Positions 14,368 through 26,766 of a DNA stretch of 64,000 nucleotides are shown here, piece by piece (the first letter of the stretch is position 1; every line of letters starts with the position of its first letter). The DNA is from Phycisphaerae bacterium (GTDB lineage Bacteria > Planctomycetota > Phycisphaerae > Sedimentisphaerales > Anaerobacaceae). The translations under genes were made by a program, and so were the position numbers. The stretch covers positions 1-64,000 of the forward strand of contig JAQTLP010000007.1 in NCBI GenBank assembly GCA_028714855.1, written 5' to 3'. Below the pieces are notes generated by a model, which worked only from the letters and a program-made list of their open reading frames with translations, did no database searches and had not been told where the DNA came from.

Positions 14368-14395
14368 TTGACAATTTCCCTTGAGATATTATAAT
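14368..14395 (+). promoter_or_regulatory. strong predicted sigma-70 promoter for the pilT cluster
   Basis: TTGACA (14368-14373) and TATAAT (14390-14395) both match consensus, with a 16-base spacer. Transcription should begin near 14402, giving a leader of about 37 bases before the pilT ATG. Confidence 0.7.
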
Positions 14396-14438: not shown

Positions 14439-15560
14439 ATGACTGCGAAACAAGACCCGAATCCTGATAATGAGCCGGCGTTAAACAAGTTCTTCAGGGT
14501 TGCTATCAAAACTAAGGCGAGCGACCTGCACTTGAAGGTCGGCCAGCCGCCTAAATTGCGTATTCAGGGAGTGCTGAAAGACACCACCGGCGAAGTAATG
14601 ACCGAAGAGGGAATGAAACAGCTTGTCTTCGAGATACTAAGTCCTGACCAGAAGGAATCTTTCCTTAAGACCGGCACCCTCGATTTCGCACATGAAGTCG
14701 GCGATGAAGACCGATTCCGGGTAAACGTGTTTCGCCAGCGGAACGTGATTAGTCTCGCAGCAAGGCGGGTAAGTGCTGAAATCCTGCCGTTTGAGGGGTT
14801 GAACCTGCCCCCTATACTGGAAAAAATAAGTGATAGCAAGCATGGGCTGATCCTTACAGTAGGTCCTACCGGTTGCGGCAAAACCACGACAGTTGTGGCG
14901 ATGTTAGACCACATAAACCGCACCCGTCCCTGCCATATAGTTACAGTTGAAGACCCCATCGAATATCTGATTAAGGACAAAAAAGCAATCGTATCGCAAA
15001 GAGAAATAGGCATTGACGTAGAAGATTATGATAAGGCCTTAAAATATCTGATGCGACAGGACCCTGATGTAATCTATATCTCCGAAATACGCGATTGCAA
15101 TGGCGTAATAGCTGCGATGAGGGCTGCGGAAACCGGTCATCTTGTTTTTGGAACAATACACTCGTCAAGCGCCTCTCACGCTGTGCAGCGACTTTTAGAC
15201 CTCTTCCCTCAAAACGAAAGAGCCCTGGCAAGACAAACTTTGAGCTTGACTATTATGGCCATCGTTAGTCAGGTATTGTTGCCGAGCATCAGGGAGGGCG
15301 TTGGCAGGATACCAGTTGTTGAGATTCTTCTTGCAAACCCATCTGTCAGAAAATTGATTGCCGATGGACGCGAGGCCGATTTGCCGAACGTTATACGAAA
15401 CTCGAAGGAAGAAGGTATGCAGGATATTACGGATAATCTCGTTAAATTTATAATGGACGGAAGCATCGAGCCGAAAGAGGCATATAAGTATGCGCCAAAT
15501 GTAGAAGAATTAAAAATGGCGTTAAAGGGTATCAGGACCGATACTACCGGTATCTTGTGA
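14439..15560 (+). CDS. pilT: type IV pilus retraction ATPase PilT-like
   Basis: This 373-residue secretion-type ATPase has the PilT layout: N-terminal PAS-like domain (FFRVAIKTKASDLHLKVGQP at about 16-35) and a C-terminal RecA domain. Walker A is VGPTGCGKTTT at about 141-151, the Asp box is VTVEDPIEY, Walker B is DPDVIYISEIRD, and the His box is AAETGHLVFGTIHS. Length and motifs fit PilT/PilU rather than PilB, as no tetracysteine zinc motif is present. It would power pilus retraction at the inner membrane. No pilin or PilC/PilM-Q genes are in the window. It lies 37 bases before the PilB-like pseudo-ATPase, under a consensus promoter. Confidence 0.92.
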   Translation: MTAKQDPNPDNEPALNKFFRVAIKTKASDLHLKVGQPPKLRIQGVLKDTTGEVMTEEGMKQLVFEILSPDQKESFLKTGTLDFAHEVGDEDRFRVNVFRQRNVISLAARRVSAEILPFEGLNLPPILEKISDSKHGLILTVGPTGCGKTTTVVAMLDHINRTRPCHIVTVEDPIEYLIKDKKAIVSQREIGIDVEDYDKALKYLMRQDPDVIYISEIRDCNGVIAAMRAAETGHLVFGTIHSSSASHAVQRLLDLFPQNERALARQTLSLTIMAIVSQVLLPSIREGVGRIPVVEILLANPSVRKLIADGREADLPNVIRNSKEEGMQDITDNLVKFIMDGSIEPKEAYKYAPNVEELKMALKGIRTDTTGIL

Positions 15561-15597
15561 TTATAATGTACTACATTTTCGTAATGGAGTGTTTTTT

Positions 15598-17256
15598 ATG
15601 ATAGGTGCATCGATGACCGCTGTTGAATACGGCGGCTATATATCTATAGTTAAGTTTGTCATCTTTTTGCTTTTGTTTTTTCCGTGGCTGCCGTTGGTTA
15701 CTTGGGTATTTCAGGATGCCAAGAACGTTGGAACAAAAGAGGTTTTTTGGACGGCTGTTGTTTTTGGCGCCGGAGCCGCAGCGGCAATAATTTGGCTCGT
15801 TACGCCTGTTTTCATTATCGGTATACTGTTTTACCTGATTGCTGTAGCGGCGGCTTCTGTCAGTTATGTAATGCACCGCAATGCCAGAGTTCCGGAATTT
15901 AATCGAGTCCTGACTGTAGAACATATCAAGGGTTTATTTACCAGTAAGGAAAAAAAACTCGCAATCCTCGAAGATTTTATTTTTATAACGGCCAATAACA
16001 ATGAGGTTCCTTTTCCAGAACCCAAAACGCCGGAATTCTTCGGCTATAAAACAGCTTATGAGATTCTCAAAGATGCTATCTGGAAAAGGGCCAGCGACGT
16101 TGTGTTTTCCTCAACCCAGCAGAATTACAACGTAACTTACTACGTTGATGGTGCTGCTTTGAAACAGCCGGATATAGCTAAAAGCAGTATGGAATATTTC
16201 AGCCGCTTTCTAAAAAATCTTGCTGATTTGGACCCGGAAGAAAAGCGAAAACCGCAAAGAGGCAAGTTCAGAACCAACCAGGACAAAAAAAATATCGAAT
16301 GGGAAATAACCACTGCAGGTTCAACCGCGGGCGAGCAAATCAGACTTAAGCAAATGACCAAGCAGAGTCTAACGAAGCTGGCTGAAATAAACCTGATGCC
16401 CGAACAATACGAACAGCTCAATACTATCCGCGACGCCAAACAAGGTCTGTTTATCGTAGCCGGCACCAAGAAAAGCGGTGCGACAAGCACTTTTTACGCA
16501 CTGCTCAGAAATCATGACCCATTTATGTACAGCATAAGCACCCTTGAAAGACAGCCTGCCGTGGAACTGCCGAATATAACTCAAAATATCTTCGCGCTCA
16601 GCGATACCGGAACGACTACATACGCCAAAAGGTTGCAGGCGATGGTAAGGATGGAGCCGGACATCGTTGGTGTCGCTGAATGCACGGACAGCGAAACGGC
16701 CCAAATCGCCTGTACTGCCGCCAAAGACGGCAAAATCGTATATGTCGTACTCGAGGCGGATGACGTAATACGGGCAATCGGAAAATGGATGAAACTGGTC
16801 GGTAACAGGAATCTTGCTGCCGATACCCTTTTGGGCATAAGTAACCAGCGCCTCCTCAGAAAGCTTTGTGACCAGTGCAAACAGGCATATGAACCTAATA
16901 AAGAGCTGCTTAGAAAGTTCAATATCCCCGCGGACAAAACAAAAGTGCTTTATCGTGCCGGCAAAGTGCAGTATGACAAACGCGGAAGGCCTTCGACCTG
17001 TGAAAATTGTCAGGGGACAGGTTTTGTCGGAAGGATGGGCGTGTTCGAAATCATAATGATGAATGACGAATTAAGAAACGTCATAAAACAGTCAAAGTCG
17101 CTGTCAGAAATCAGTACAGCGTTCAGACGGGCTAAAATGCTTTATTTGCAGCAACAGGCGTTGAGAAGGGTCATTGCCGGTACAACCGCGATAGACGAAA
17201 TGATCAGAGTGCTCGCAGCCTCTGAAAAATCAAAAACAACAAAACCGGAACAATAA
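15598..17256 (+). CDS. PilB/GspE-like protein with two N-terminal membrane regions and a degenerate Walker A (predicted pseudo-ATPase)
   Basis: This 552-residue protein aligns over its C-terminal two thirds with the T2SS/T4P assembly ATPases. Two hydrophobic regions lie at about 13-35 and 46-85, which PilB/GspE proteins lack. The P-loop reads GTKKSGATS (residues 289-297), so the catalytic Lys is A295. The Walker B region keeps EPDIVGVAE with E361, but the following IRD is CTD and the His box GHLV is GKIV. The zinc motif is intact: C424, C427, C468 and C471 in LCDQC and TCENC. ATP hydrolysis is therefore unlikely and a structural or regulatory role is inferred. ATG 15598 is chosen over GTG 15589 because GGAG sits at the right distance. 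No canonical PilB is in the window. Confidence 0.85.
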   Translation: MIGASMTAVEYGGYISIVKFVIFLLLFFPWLPLVTWVFQDAKNVGTKEVFWTAVVFGAGAAAAIIWLVTPVFIIGILFYLIAVAAASVSYVMHRNARVPEFNRVLTVEHIKGLFTSKEKKLAILEDFIFITANNNEVPFPEPKTPEFFGYKTAYEILKDAIWKRASDVVFSSTQQNYNVTYYVDGAALKQPDIAKSSMEYFSRFLKNLADLDPEEKRKPQRGKFRTNQDKKNIEWEITTAGSTAGEQIRLKQMTKQSLTKLAEINLMPEQYEQLNTIRDAKQGLFIVAGTKKSGATSTFYALLRNHDPFMYSISTLERQPAVELPNITQNIFALSDTGTTTYAKRLQAMVRMEPDIVGVAECTDSETAQIACTAAKDGKIVYVVLEADDVIRAIGKWMKLVGNRNLAADTLLGISNQRLLRKLCDQCKQAYEPNKELLRKFNIPADKTKVLYRAGKVQYDKRGRPSTCENCQGTGFVGRMGVFEIIMMNDELRNVIKQSKSLSEISTAFRRAKMLYLQQQALRRVIAGTTAIDEMIRVLAASEKSKTTKPEQ

Positions 17257-17318
17257 TAAAGACTGAAAATTTCAGACGTGATTATCTAATTCATCGTTGA
17301 TAACTTGGAGATATTGTA

Positions 17319-18494
17319 ATGGGCAGTTTACTTGTGTTGTTGATTATTTTAGGGTGTGTCGTTTATCTGTATCTGAAAGGCACGCTGGTTAAATCGTTTG
17401 CTATGGTGATAGTATCTATTTGCGCAAGTATAGTTGCCTTCGGCTACTTCGAGCTTTCGGGGAATTTTTTAATCGGCCGCAAAATCCTTGTGTCGTGGGC
17501 ATACCCGCTCTCATTTATACTGCTGTTCGTTTTGGTTTTTGCCATACTTCAGACAATCGCCAGCCAGCTGACTCTCAAGCCGGTTGACTTGGGATTTCTG
17601 CCGGAGCGCATCGGACGCGTTATTTGCGGGATTCTCCTGGGGCTTATGGTGTCCGGAGTTTTGCTCGCGACCGTCGCGATGGCGCCTTTATCGCCGAAAT
17701 ATCCCTATCAGCGTTTTGATGTAACGAACCCCGACGCCGAAACCCCCAAAAAGGTATTGCCAAATGCCGATGGTTTTGCAACAGGATGGTTTAATATCAT
17801 AAGCAGCGGCAGCTTTAGCGGCAAAAGAAGTTTTGCAACTATGCACCCGGCTTTCATCGACCAGCTCTTCCTGAACCGGCTCGAAATCAATAACAGAGTT
17901 CCGGTTATCGCTGTCCCCGACGCAATAGAAATACCGAAGATAGCTGTTTGGCCGGCTCCCGAAGACCTGAAGGACTCCGAGGGAAATCCGATACAGCCGA
18001 AAAGCGGTCATACCCTTACAATCATAAGGGTGGGGATGGTCGCTTATGCAATAATCCCATTTACGCCTTCTCAGTTAAGAGTGATTTGCAAAGAGAAAGA
18101 GGCAAGTGATGATAAGGACCAGCTCGCCGGAAAAGGGGAAAATATTTATCCTGTTGGATATATGAAGACGGTGGACGAGTTGCGGATAAGAAAATTAGTC
18201 GACCATATAGACATAAAAAAAGCCGATATCTCAGGCAGAATGAAGGAAATCGATTTTGTTTTTTATGTCCCCGATGGTTTTAAACCCGTCCTGGTCGAGT
18301 ATAAGCAAAATTGTGTCAGGCAGATACCGCAGTCTGCGGTTGTATCGGCTGAGCAGGCCCCGTCGATAGTGCCCTTTGAGAAACCACCGGAACCGGTAAG
18401 GGTTTCTGAACCTAATAAGCCTGTGGAGCAGCCAAAATCCCCTTCCCTGCCTGCTTCTTCTGCACAACCCGGCCCGCGCGATGCTAATAAATAG
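17319..18494 (+). CDS. CvpA-like membrane protein with long C-terminal extension
   Basis: Of 391 residues, the first about 130 form four hydrophobic helices (around 3-20, 24-42, 60-85 and 98-120) with a CvpA/colicin-V-production-like pattern (LGFLPERIGRVICGILLGLM). Residues about 130-340 form a soluble domain without a recognised family, followed by a Pro/Glu/Ser-rich tail (about 340-391). CvpA proteins are linked to envelope stress and secretion; exact function is unclear. It lies 62 bases after the pseudo-ATPase on the same strand, so it may belong to the pilT transcript. An AGAT/GGAG site precedes the ATG. Confidence 0.7.
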   Translation: MGSLLVLLIILGCVVYLYLKGTLVKSFAMVIVSICASIVAFGYFELSGNFLIGRKILVSWAYPLSFILLFVLVFAILQTIASQLTLKPVDLGFLPERIGRVICGILLGLMVSGVLLATVAMAPLSPKYPYQRFDVTNPDAETPKKVLPNADGFATGWFNIISSGSFSGKRSFATMHPAFIDQLFLNRLEINNRVPVIAVPDAIEIPKIAVWPAPEDLKDSEGNPIQPKSGHTLTIIRVGMVAYAIIPFTPSQLRVICKEKEASDDKDQLAGKGENIYPVGYMKTVDELRIRKLVDHIDIKKADISGRMKEIDFVFYVPDGFKPVLVEYKQNCVRQIPQSAVVSAEQAPSIVPFEKPPEPVRVSEPNKPVEQPKSPSLPASSAQPGPRDANK

Positions 18495-18587: not shown

Positions 18588-18740
18588 TCAGGAGCAAACG
18601 ACCAATTCTTCTTCCAGATTCAGCTCCATCAGGTGTTCGAGATAACTGTACAAATCTTCCTCCGAAAAATCGGCGAGGAATTCCGGCTTGGCGCTTCTGT
18701 TGATTTCACAAATGCGGTCTATCAATTCCCTTTTACTCAT
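18588..18740 (-). CDS. 50-residue conserved-looking small protein
   Basis: A 50-codon frame begins MSKRELIDRICEINRSAKPE and ends at TGA (18588-18590 on the plus strand). It has AAGGATG about 7 bases before the ATG. The product is acidic and helical (FADFSEEDLYSYLEHLMEL wording, two likely amphipathic helices) and resembles small unannotated proteins I have seen in planctomycetal genomes; this is recollection, not a search. The good ribosome-binding site and coherent amino-acid use support a real gene. Its leader (18741-18860) has three hairpins. Confidence 0.6.
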   Translation of the reverse strand: MSKRELIDRICEINRSAKPEFLADFSEEDLYSYLEHLMELNLEEELVVCS

Positions 18741-18777
18741 ACACGCACATCCTTAAAAACTATTGTTCCTCAACTTA

Positions 18778-19174: not shown

Positions 19175-21211
19175 GTGACAGCTATAGGCGACATTCGCAA
19201 CATTGTTCTTTTAGGGCACGGTGGTAGCGGCAAAACCTCTCTTACCGAGGCTATGCTGCATACTACCGGCGCAACAAACCGCCTCGGCAGCGTTGATGAC
19301 AAAACCAGCATCTGCGATTATTACGACGAGGAAAAGGAGCATCAGCATTCTATCACATCAGCTATTGTTCATACCAGCCACCGCGGCAAACTGCTCAATA
19401 TCATCGATACCCCGGGCTATCCTGATTTCGTAGGCCCAGCCATCAAATCGATATCCGCCGCCGAAATCGCAGTTATCGTCGTTAGCGCTTCGGCAGGCAT
19501 CGAAACGAATACCCGTAAACTCTTCGAATCGGCTGCAGCCGCCAATATGCCGCGGGTCTTCGTCATTAATAAAATCGATGCCGAAAATGCTGACCTTCCC
19601 GCCCTTCTCAAGGCCATTCAGGAAACTTTCGGCCCACAGTGTCGTTGCGCCAACCTTCCTGCTGCGGACAAGGCCTCAGTAATCGATTGCATCGAAAACA
19701 AAAGCGGCGAATCACCCCTGGGCGATGTTGCTCAGGCGCATACTGATTTAATAGAAAGCGTCATTGAAGCCGACGACCAGCTTATGGAAACTTATCTCGG
19801 CGGCGGGGAAATATCCGCCGAAAAAATAGCTTCTGTTTTCGTAAAGGCCCTCAAGGCCGGAACTGTTACGCCCGTTCTTTTCACAAATGCTCGCAAAGAA
19901 ATTGGAGTGACCGAGCTTCTCGATTTTATTGTAAAATACGCGCCATCCCCGCTCGAAGCTGACCCTGCTCAGCTTAAAGCTGGTGAAAACGTAACAGCCC
20001 TCAAACCCGATCCAGCGGCTCCGCTGGCAGGGATGGTGTTTCGCATCGGCTTTGACCCCCGCTCAAATATGAAGTATTCCGCCGTCCGTATCTTCAGCGG
20101 AACGGTTAAATCGGATACTAATCTTATCCGCAATGATGAGAAAAAAGGCATCCGCGCAGGCCACATCTTAAAATCGCAGGGCGGCGAAAACAAAGAAATC
20201 GAAACCGGCCAGGCCGGTGACATCATAACCATCGCCAAAGCTGAGGAATTTAAAATCGGCGACCTCATTCACGACGGCAAAGTCGCCGGAAAATTCGACA
20301 CCCCCGCCGTGCCTGAGCCGATGTTCTCGCTGGCCCTTGAGCTGTCAGCAAAAGGCGACGAGCAAAGAATCAGTGCAGCACTGGAAAAACTATGCGAGGA
20401 AGACCCTTGCCTTAAGGTTACACGCGACCAGCAGACGAATGAACAGGTTGCCAGCGGCCTCGGCGACCTCCACCTCCGCATAATGCTCGAAAAACTGGAG
20501 AAACGCTTCAAGCTCATAGTAACTGGAAAAGAGCCCAAGATTCCTTACCGCGAGACAATCTCGACAAAAGCCGAAGGACATTACCGCCATAAAAAGCAGA
20601 CCGGCGGCGCGGGTCAGTTCGGCGAAGTTTACCTGCGGGTAGAGCCCGCCCCGCGAGGCTCAGACCCGTCTCTCGATTATAAATGGGACATTTTCGGTGC
20701 CTCAATCCCGGGCCAGTTCGAGCCTGCTGTTCAAAAAGGCGTCGTCGATGTAATGCAGAGGGGCGTCGTCGCAGGCTTCCCGATGCAGGATATAAAAGTC
20801 TCCGTCTACGACGGCAAATACCACCCTGTTGACTCAAAGGAAGTCGCATTCCGAGCGGCGGGAAAAGGTGCCTTTATGGATGCTGTTTCCAAGGCAAAGC
20901 CAGTTTTGCTTGAGCCGATTGTCAATATGGAAGTTACCATCCCGGCCGAGCATATAGGCGATATCACAGGCGATTTGTCCTCAAAAAGAGGAAGAGTAAT
21001 AGGTCAGGACATGCTCGCGGGAAATTTCATCGTTATTAAGGCTCAGGTCCCGCTTTCCGAGGTTACGCAGTATAATAGCCAGTTAAAGAGCGTAACCGGC
21101 GGACGGGGCAGCTATTCGATGACGCTAAGCCGATATGAGGTTGTGCCGGGCAATGTCCAGCAGCAGATTATCGCTCAATACGGCAAAAAGAAAGAAGTAG
21201 AAGAGCAATAA
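19175..21211 (+). CDS. elongation factor G paralogue (EF-G-like GTPase)
   Basis: This 678-residue translation GTPase has all five EF-G domains. The P-loop is GHGGSGKTS (residues 14-22) instead of the AHIDAGKT of housekeeping EF-G. G3 is DTPGYPDF, with Y82 in the position of the catalytic His. G4 is NKID at about 131-134. Switch I reads EKEHQHSITSA where canonical EF-G has EKERGITITSA. Domain IV keeps HRHKKQTGGAGQFGEVYL-like wording (RHKKQTGGAGQFGEV), and domain V ends GRGSYSMTLSRYEVVP. These features place it with the EF-G-like (FusA2-type) group rather than with the main FusA; the role of that group is not settled. The start is GTG with TTGGAGG upstream. The 25-residue ORF follows 20 bases later. 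Confidence 0.88.
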   Translation: MTAIGDIRNIVLLGHGGSGKTSLTEAMLHTTGATNRLGSVDDKTSICDYYDEEKEHQHSITSAIVHTSHRGKLLNIIDTPGYPDFVGPAIKSISAAEIAVIVVSASAGIETNTRKLFESAAAANMPRVFVINKIDAENADLPALLKAIQETFGPQCRCANLPAADKASVIDCIENKSGESPLGDVAQAHTDLIESVIEADDQLMETYLGGGEISAEKIASVFVKALKAGTVTPVLFTNARKEIGVTELLDFIVKYAPSPLEADPAQLKAGENVTALKPDPAAPLAGMVFRIGFDPRSNMKYSAVRIFSGTVKSDTNLIRNDEKKGIRAGHILKSQGGENKEIETGQAGDIITIAKAEEFKIGDLIHDGKVAGKFDTPAVPEPMFSLALELSAKGDEQRISAALEKLCEEDPCLKVTRDQQTNEQVASGLGDLHLRIMLEKLEKRFKLIVTGKEPKIPYRETISTKAEGHYRHKKQTGGAGQFGEVYLRVEPAPRGSDPSLDYKWDIFGASIPGQFEPAVQKGVVDVMQRGVVAGFPMQDIKVSVYDGKYHPVDSKEVAFRAAGKGAFMDAVSKAKPVLLEPIVNMEVTIPAEHIGDITGDLSSKRGRVIGQDMLAGNFIVIKAQVPLSEVTQYNSQLKSVTGGRGSYSMTLSRYEVVPGNVQQQIIAQYGKKKEVEEQ

Positions 21212-25533: not shown

Positions 25534-26766
25534 CTAACGTACCAAAAGGAAAATGATAGCTAAAAGCAATATCGCCGCTACTGCTCCGAGGACCAATGTC
25601 GCAATTTTGTAATGGGCTATGGCGAGGACATCTTCTTTGAAATGTTTATCTTCCGCTTTGAGGGCCGCTCCTTTTTCGAGCTGACCGAGCACGGAGACAT
25701 CGAACCTTTTGTGAGCCCTAATAGGAGGCAGGCCGTCGCGAACGGCCTCTAAATCTGTCAGCAGCTCCTCAACGTTGTTGTATCGGTCTTCTTTGCGCTT
25801 GGCCATCATAACCTCGATTACTTCGGATGTCCCTGCGGAAAGCTTTGTGTTTATATGGTCGGGCGGAATCAGCTCATCCCGGAGGTGCTTTCTCATTACC
25901 TCCGCGGGATCATCAGCCATAAACGGGACACGACCTGTTACCATATGATAAAAAGTCGCTCCGAGGCCGTAAATATCCGCCCTGCCGTCGATGTCGATTT
26001 TGCCACGGATTTGTTCTGGAGCGATGTAATACGGCGTGCCATACGCTTTGCCTGCCTCGGTTTGAGCGGCTTCGATGTCTGTCGTCTCGCGTGCCAGACC
26101 CATATCGGCGAGCTTGACTACGCCTGCGGGGTTTATCATTATGTTCTTCGGCTTGACGTCGCGGTGAATCAAGCCGCACGAATGGGCGTGCTGAAGCGCA
26201 TGAGCAACCTGAATGACTATATCCAGCGCCTGGTCCTCTTTAAAGACTTTGCCAGCGGCCAAATCATCGTGCAGAGTTTTGCCTTCGACGTACTCCATTA
26301 CGAAGTAGTAGTACCCCCCTGCCTCACCGACGTCAACGGCCTGGACGATATTGTTATGATTGAGCTTTCCGGCGGCCCGACCTTCTTTGAAGAAGCGTTC
26401 GACATATTCGGGGTTTCCACTAAAGCGCTTTGGCAGGACTTTTATCGCGACGGTGCGGTTGAGGCTCAATTGCAGGGCCTTATAGACGACCGCCATTGCA
26501 CCGGCGCCGAGTTTGCCGAGTATTTTATAGCCTGGAATCTGGTGCGCGACTACCTTGGTTTCCTTGATGCTTTTGCCTAACCTTTCGGCCTGGTTCGGCG
26601 TGATATAGCCAAGGTTCACCATAAGGTCTTTGAGGACTACGGGATTGATTTTACTGCGGGATTGCAGCTCCTCGAGCGAACGGCGCAGCTCCGCGTCTGT
26701 GCACAGGCCCTGCTCGACCGCCATTTTGCCAAACATTGTATCGTAACTTGTTTCGTTTGTTGTCAT
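25534..26766 (-). CDS. membrane-anchored Ser/Thr protein kinase
   Basis: This 410-residue eukaryotic-type kinase has a complete active site: glycine loop GKLGAGAMAVVYKA (84-97), K109 in VAIKVL, catalytic loop HRDVKPKN (201-208, D203), DMG at 221-223 in place of DFG, and APE as YIAPEQIRG. Residues 11-65 (FGKMAVEQGLCTDAELRRSL and a second NLGYITPNQAERL half) resemble the MshEN/GspE N-terminal domain, which in known proteins can bind c-di-GMP. One C-terminal helix (about 387-409) anchors it, with no PASTA or other extracellular domain. It heads a three-gene minus-strand set. A promoter with TTGACA/TAATTA lies upstream. Confidence 0.9.
   Translation of the reverse strand: MTTNETSYDTMFGKMAVEQGLCTDAELRRSLEELQSRSKINPVVLKDLMVNLGYITPNQAERLGKSIKETKVVAHQIPGYKILGKLGAGAMAVVYKALQLSLNRTVAIKVLPKRFSGNPEYVERFFKEGRAAGKLNHNNIVQAVDVGEAGGYYYFVMEYVEGKTLHDDLAAGKVFKEDQALDIVIQVAHALQHAHSCGLIHRDVKPKNIMINPAGVVKLADMGLARETTDIEAAQTEAGKAYGTPYYIAPEQIRGKIDIDGRADIYGLGATFYHMVTGRVPFMADDPAEVMRKHLRDELIPPDHINTKLSAGTSEVIEVMMAKRKEDRYNNVEELLTDLEAVRDGLPPIRAHKRFDVSVLGQLEKGAALKAEDKHFKEDVLAIAHYKIATLVLGAVAAILLLAIIFLLVR

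Follow-up and report, generated by a model that had tools for sequence, protein, structure and literature searches.

A membrane-anchored pseudoenzyme of the PilB/GspE motor family encoded with PilT and a CvpA-like protein in Phycisphaerae

Introduction

PilB, PilF and GspE (TIGR02538, TIGR02533), the ATPases of type IV pilus assembly and of type II secretion, are motor proteins with an N2 and C1 fold, a zinc tetra-cysteine motif and an arginine, Arg455 in PilB, that makes a contact between chains. The related PilU is a PilT-dependent retraction ATPase, active and of the PilT subfamily (PMC6762196), and CvpA (PF02674) is a membrane protein whose Escherichia coli representative has been linked to bile-salt resistance (PMC6705877). 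Here we describe a locus that touches on all of these, in a 64,000-nucleotide stretch of a Phycisphaerae bacterium (contig JAQTLP010000007.1 of assembly GCA_028714855.1, positions 1 to 64,000; hereafter ‘the window’). A gene for a membrane-anchored PilB-like protein, which we call pseudo-PilB, lies there between genes for PilT and for a CvpA-like protein.

Pseudo-PilB shares the fold, the zinc motif and the inter-chain arginine of PilB, PilF and GspE. It differs from them in having lost catalytic residues acting both in cis and in trans, in carrying three membrane helices where they have an N1 domain, and in adjoining a CvpA-like gene instead of PilC. Like PilU, it is a second protein of the PilT/VirB11 family encoded with PilT; unlike pseudo-PilB, PilU hydrolyses ATP, belongs to the PilT subfamily and has no membrane anchor (PMC6762196). 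Its partner resembles CvpA in its N-terminal 4-helix membrane part and departs from it in being fused to an extra beta-rich domain and in being encoded with motor proteins. Judged from its sequence and that of its relatives, pseudo-PilB appears to be a member of the PilB/GspE motor family that became a pseudoenzyme long ago, and we regard its pseudoenzyme status as solid. We accordingly file it as a pseudoenzyme branch of PilB with a membrane anchor and a CvpA-like partner of its own.

Literature searches on pseudo-PilB, on pili of Planctomycetes and Phycisphaerae, on degenerate Walker motifs and on a CvpA-GspE operon returned no description of the module. Nor did they yield a pseudo-ATPase of the PilB/GspE family that is selected and class-wide, or a link between a PilB-type motor and CvpA. 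A survey of archaeal type IV pili does not mention inactivated ATPases.

Results

Catalytic residues are lost from pseudo-PilB and chain-holding elements stay

Residue roles were taken from structures of Geobacter PilB (PMC5424180) and transferred to pseudo-PilB by alignment. Residues were counted over 158 rows made up of two overlapping sets, the 78 rows of the dead clade in the tree described below and 80 named loci, most of them titled Phycisphaerae, Phycisphaerales, Sedimentisphaerales or Planctomycetota. An earlier note on this DNA, made from the letters alone, had reported an alanine at the position of the catalytic lysine in the P-loop GTKKSGATS. This is indeed the case: the codon is GCG, encoding residue 295 when counted from the ATG at 15598 and residue 298 when counted from the GTG at 15589. 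Across the 80 named loci the same position is occupied by V (51), I (11), R (5), L (4), A (4), T (3) and K (2).

The lysine (Lys331 in PilB numbering) is one of several residues lost family-wide, together with Thr327, Asp354, the Mg-binding Glu357, Arg397, Thr411, His413 and His420. Also gone are both trans-acting arginine fingers, Arg286 and Arg271, the latter being replaced by Glu in 74 of the 80 named loci. Counted in both sets, the canonical residue was retained in 0/78 tree rows and 2/80 named loci for the lysine, in 3/78 and 0/80 for Arg271 and in 2/78 and 0/80 for His420. The Mg-binding Glu of the ASP box and both arginine fingers are losses that the earlier note had missed. Its statement that the Walker B and His boxes are altered is correct for the Gly, the Arg, Thr411 and both His, but not for the catalytic Glu395, which is partly kept, being Glu in the window (AEC for GEI) and mostly Asp across the family.

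Other positions are invariant among the relatives aligned, namely Gly330 and the Thr/Ser of the P-loop, Glu353 of the ASP box, the inter-chain Arg455 and the four zinc cysteines, which the earlier note had described as intact and which are present in 158 of 158 rows. With cis and trans residues lost and Arg455 and the cysteines retained, both the protein's own pocket and the residues it would lend to a neighbour are gone, and the elements that hold chains together stay. Lacking the Walker Lys, the ASP-box Glu, the His box and the arginine fingers, pseudo-PilB does not classify by sequence as an active PilB or GspE.

The loss is class-wide and the protein is under purifying selection

Of the 61 closest genomes, nearly all have an orthologue of pseudo-PilB, and in about 57 the best match is clearly above paralogue level (three of these split or partial). 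At a threshold of E 1e-60, 134 of the 150 class genomes examined have one, and for the phylum 22 of 199 genomes. In a tree built without the motif columns, the Walker Lys is missing from all 78 rows of a dead clade that forms one side of a single branch (Shimodaira–Hasegawa-like approximate likelihood ratio test, 93). The lysine is kept by 12 membrane-anchored PilBs of other classes and by eight PilB-family paralogues of the own genome. The dead rows comprise 77 from class Phycisphaerae and one long branch from another class. On this tree the lysine loss is one change. We read the erasure of the ATP site as a single event near the base of class Phycisphaerae, and the intact membrane-anchored homologues of other Planctomycetota classes look ancestral.

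The long branch (L110, genome G352) belongs to a very divergent membrane-anchored PilB-like protein that lacks the lysine and adjoins PilT; it may branch at the root of the dead clade or have lost the lysine independently.

The earlier note had proposed to look in Planctomycetota for close homologues sharing the lysine loss and the membrane region beside PilT, and such homologues are present class-wide. An intact GKT in related genomes, which the note took as contrary to its proposal, was encountered only in homologues of other classes and in the two named loci with K; these two lack the remaining motifs, so that the lysine looks to have come back by chance at an unconstrained site. A sequencing error at 16480 is excluded because the homologues show the lysine loss too.

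The ratio of nonsynonymous to synonymous substitution rates (dN/dS) is 0.09-0.15 for pseudo-PilB and 0.13-0.15 for PilT in the same comparisons, with the C1 region being the slowest-evolving part of pseudo-PilB (0.075). Pseudo-PilB is thus under purifying selection, like PilT. Taken together, the class-wide motif loss, the tree and the dN/dS values lend strong support to the earlier proposal of a structural pseudo-ATPase.

Pseudo-PilB is predicted to retain the PilB core and to have a membrane anchor

An AlphaFold model of pseudo-PilB (56 sequences) has a mean predicted local distance difference test (pLDDT) score of 83.6 and contains three N-terminal helices and a complete PilB core. Its closest structures in the PDB are Thermus PilF and Geobacter PilB, with a TM-score by target of 0.92 to PilF 5oiu and a Foldseek E-value of 1e-36 to PilF. 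The match to PF00437 (the T2SSE domain) and the N2-C1 fold place the protein in the PilB/GspE fold family. It scores far under the equivalog cut-offs, at 196 versus 675.65 bits for TIGR02538 and 206 versus 630 bits for TIGR02533.

No Pfam match to an N1 domain (MshEN, GspE_N) was obtained in pseudo-PilB, and membrane helices lie at that place. The earlier note had counted two membrane regions; the membrane region is there and hydropathy does give two segments, but the model has three helices. Residues W39, D43, W54, Y93, R97 and N98 form an anchor signature that is common to dead and intact membrane-anchored PilBs. Since the intact relatives start with a signal-peptide-like stretch, the sequences suggest that the N-terminus points outward and that the ATPase-like domain is cytoplasmic.

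A CvpA-like protein is the constant partner

A CvpA-like membrane open reading frame (ORF) lies directly downstream of pseudo-PilB in 58 of 60 longer loci, and 76 of the 80 named loci have a CvpA-like gene detectable by BLAST. Of 53 dead loci, 46 have PilT as the gene directly upstream; its motifs are intact in nearly all of 52 neighbours compared. Pseudo-PilB is thus tied more tightly to the CvpA-like gene than to PilT.

Both neighbours had been named in the earlier note. The identity of the window PilT is clear, with a TIGR01420 score well over the cut-off of 319 bits and intact motifs. The downstream gene is CvpA-like as well, though the match is weak in the window itself (19.1 bits against a PF02674 cut-off of 29.3): of seven relatives scanned at the same position, three score over the cut-off (36.8 to 46.1 bits), three fall just below and one is unmatched. 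The model of the CvpA-like protein (pLDDT 92) has membrane helices at residues 2-20, 23-53, 58-84 and 93-121, followed by a beta-rich domain at about 196-357, which seems to be missing from the shorter partners of the intact forms. Structure searches with this model returned a weak beta-sandwich match to 5bxg (Foldseek, E 0.0045) and a weak match to MscS (VIA-align, Z 5.6 over 66 residues), both too weak for a function to be assigned from them.

No PilC/GspF platform gene is found in the pseudo-PilB locus, the CvpA-like protein being there instead. Reading the neighbours in eleven listed loci revealed no evident pilin, PilC or secretin gene, a family search of every neighbour not having been made. 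The own genome encodes eight intact PilB/GspE ATPases, five PilC and four secretins, and all five PilC genes adjoin canonical PilBs. It has only two CvpA-like matches, both under the Pfam cut-off, each behind one of its two membrane-anchored PilB genes.

The second of these membrane-anchored genes is an intact paralogue (L141, 500-3326; contig C6 of the own genome, about 96.8k-99.7k). A gene for an FHA-domain protein precedes it, and the other CvpA-like gene follows directly. This paralogue was found in 39 of 61 related genomes and not found in 22 at the threshold used. In 30 fetched loci of its family, a membrane ORF follows directly downstream every time, 29 of them with a BLAST match to its CvpA-like neighbour; the remaining locus (L258) has a membrane ORF at that place and no BLAST match. 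Other Planctomycetota classes also have intact membrane-anchored PilBs (L058, L059, L066, L068, L070, L106-L109 and L111-L113), with a CvpA-like gene downstream in the seven long loci read, except L108, and PilT upstream in several. The intact forms thus share with pseudo-PilB the membrane-domain signature and the gene neighbours; unlike it, they have all catalytic motifs, the signal-peptide-like start and a shorter CvpA-like partner. Gene order of the module was surveyed within Planctomycetota.

Layout of the locus

The three genes follow one another on the forward strand behind a promoter (Table 1). The earlier note held that a strong consensus promoter drives the set; the perfect consensus is present, and joint drive of all three genes from it is likely given that the gaps between genes are 28 and 62 bases. 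The pseudo-PilB frame is also open from the GTG at 15589, and a Shine-Dalgarno sequence, GGAG, is located at 15586-15589. As it sits eight bases ahead of the ATG at 15598, this ATG is the best start.

Table 1. Positions in the window of the promoter, the three genes and the motifs of pseudo-PilB (aa, amino acids).
Feature	Position	Strand	Basis
Sigma-70 consensus promoter, TTGACA-16-TATAAT, precedes all three genes	14368-14395	+	12/12 match
PilT-type ATPase, 373 aa; Walker A, ASP box, Walker B and His box present	14439-15560	+	TIGR01420 389 bits; motif comparison
Membrane-anchored pseudo-PilB, 552 aa from ATG 15598 (555 aa from GTG 15589)	15598-17256	+	PF00437 4e-55; model
Three predicted transmembrane helices, residues 20-47, 51-71 and 75-100 (from 15589), replacing the PilB N1 domain	15646-15888	+	AlphaFold model
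Glu239 at position of PilB arginine finger R271	16303-16305	+	Alignment
Lys254 at position of PilB arginine finger R286	16348-16350	+	Alignment
Degenerate P-loop GTKKSGAT; Ala codon 16480-16482 in place of Walker Lys	16462-16485	+	Alignment
ASP-box equivalent ERQPA; Mg-binding Glu replaced by Ala, first Glu kept	16546-16560	+	Alignment
Walker B equivalent AECTD (canonical GEIRD)	16675-16689	+	Alignment
His-box equivalent DGKIVYVVLE; Thr411 and both His lost	16726-16755	+	Alignment
Arg424, equivalent to PilB Arg455, inter-chain contact, invariant in all aligned rows	16858-16860	+	Alignment; role from PMC5424180
Zinc tetra-cysteine motif, Cys427, 430, 471 and 474, invariant	16867-17010	+	Alignment
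CvpA-like protein, 391 aa	17319-18494	+	PF02674, weak in window, over cut-off in some relatives; model pLDDT 92

Downstream of the module, the window has an elongation factor G-like gene at 19175-21211, which takes this place in many genomes of the same family. Between it and the CvpA-like gene, a small ORF of ~50 aa was noticed by eye on the minus strand, at about 18590-18742. Further away, a serine/threonine kinase-like protein (25534-26766) has an N-terminus that, by eye, resembles the helical start of PilB N1 domains.

Discussion

Our judgement comes down, if modestly, on the side of pseudo-PilB being a membrane-anchored pseudo-ATPase ring that scaffolds a CvpA-like complex, usually with PilT as the power source. 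In this scheme, the ATP site was erased once, both in the protein's own pocket and in the arginines that a neighbouring subunit would receive from it. Purifying selection has kept the PilB fold with its zinc, the arginine of the ring contact and the added three-helix anchor. Pseudo-PilB would then most likely form a complete or partial ring attached to the inner membrane, which would carry or shape the CvpA-like complex by binding the 4-helix protein via the anchor domain. In most lineages an active PilT ring would dock on the pseudo-PilB ring and supply ATP hydrolysis.

Several observations weigh against this proposal. The PF02674 score of the window's CvpA-like protein stays under the cut-off, and PilT is missing beside pseudo-PilB in 7 of 53 dead loci. 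In four genomes of family f13 there is no clear PilT orthologue, the best PilT matches being ~40% identical, which is paralogue level. Two loci of family f2 (L128 and L130) have a partly decayed PilT, with pieces of its Walker B or His box missing. PilT can therefore not be essential everywhere. The invariant P-loop Gly and Thr/Ser and first ASP-box Glu also leave room for some ligand binding. As to L128 and L130, the loss of ATPase motifs may be spreading there to a second motor.

The residual P-loop is the starting point of one competing explanation, by which pseudo-PilB binds a nucleotide or other ligand without hydrolysis and acts as a ligand-sensing membrane switch. The Walker B Glu/Asp is mostly kept besides the invariant residues just named, and the C1 region is the most constrained part of the protein; however, the Lys, the Mg-binding Glu, both His and both arginine fingers are lost and the Lys position varies freely (V, I, L, A, T, R), which makes the switch improbable. 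We find it equally improbable that pseudo-PilB is a dead subunit in a hetero-hexamer, tuning or anchoring the motor as an inactive member alongside PilT, as the earlier note had suggested, or alongside the intact membrane-anchored PilB. PilT does lie directly upstream, the intact paralogue with its own CvpA-like neighbour is present in many related genomes, and Arg455 is invariant. With the lent arginine fingers lost, though, each dead member would also disable the adjacent site, and a mixed ring with PilT is unlikely for this reason. PilT moreover comes from another subfamily, one that lacks the zinc motif, over a third of the related genomes gave no intact paralogue at the threshold used, published PilT/PilU data argue against mixed rings (PMC6762196), and family f13 keeps pseudo-PilB without a dedicated PilT. 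The idea of pairing with PilT in a mixed ring is thus not supported.

Anchoring of a pilus motor by pseudo-PilB is possible in another form, as a regulator of retraction that would keep PilT membrane-bound to serve type IV pili made from canonical loci elsewhere in the genome. The genome's complement of intact PilB/GspE ATPases, PilC and secretins fits this, and PilU provides a known PilT-dependent partner of PilT. Yet gene context gives no support, no pilin, PilC or secretin being evident beside the module in the loci read, and the persistence of pseudo-PilB in family f13 without its PilT, along with its tighter tie to the CvpA-like gene, leaves the regulator slightly less credible still than the switch or the mixed ring. 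Finally, the loss of otherwise universal catalytic residues could have indicated a pseudogene or an assembly or sequencing error, but a full-length open frame in nearly all relatives, the same loss throughout the class and the low dN/dS rule this out.

Returning to the scaffold proposal, a wider extension of it is conceivable, and we put it forward only tentatively: Planctomycetota may possess a pilus-free membrane machine in which a PilB-type ring embedded in the membrane is combined with a CvpA-like 4-helix protein. In some classes the machine's own ATPase would drive it; in Phycisphaerae the ring would have become a pure scaffold, and the drive would come from a separate PilT or be lacking. 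Pseudo-PilB offers a natural experiment on the role of a PilB ring deprived of ATP, and a lead towards the function of CvpA. It also means that not every PilT or PilB gene of Planctomycetota can be taken as a pilus gene.

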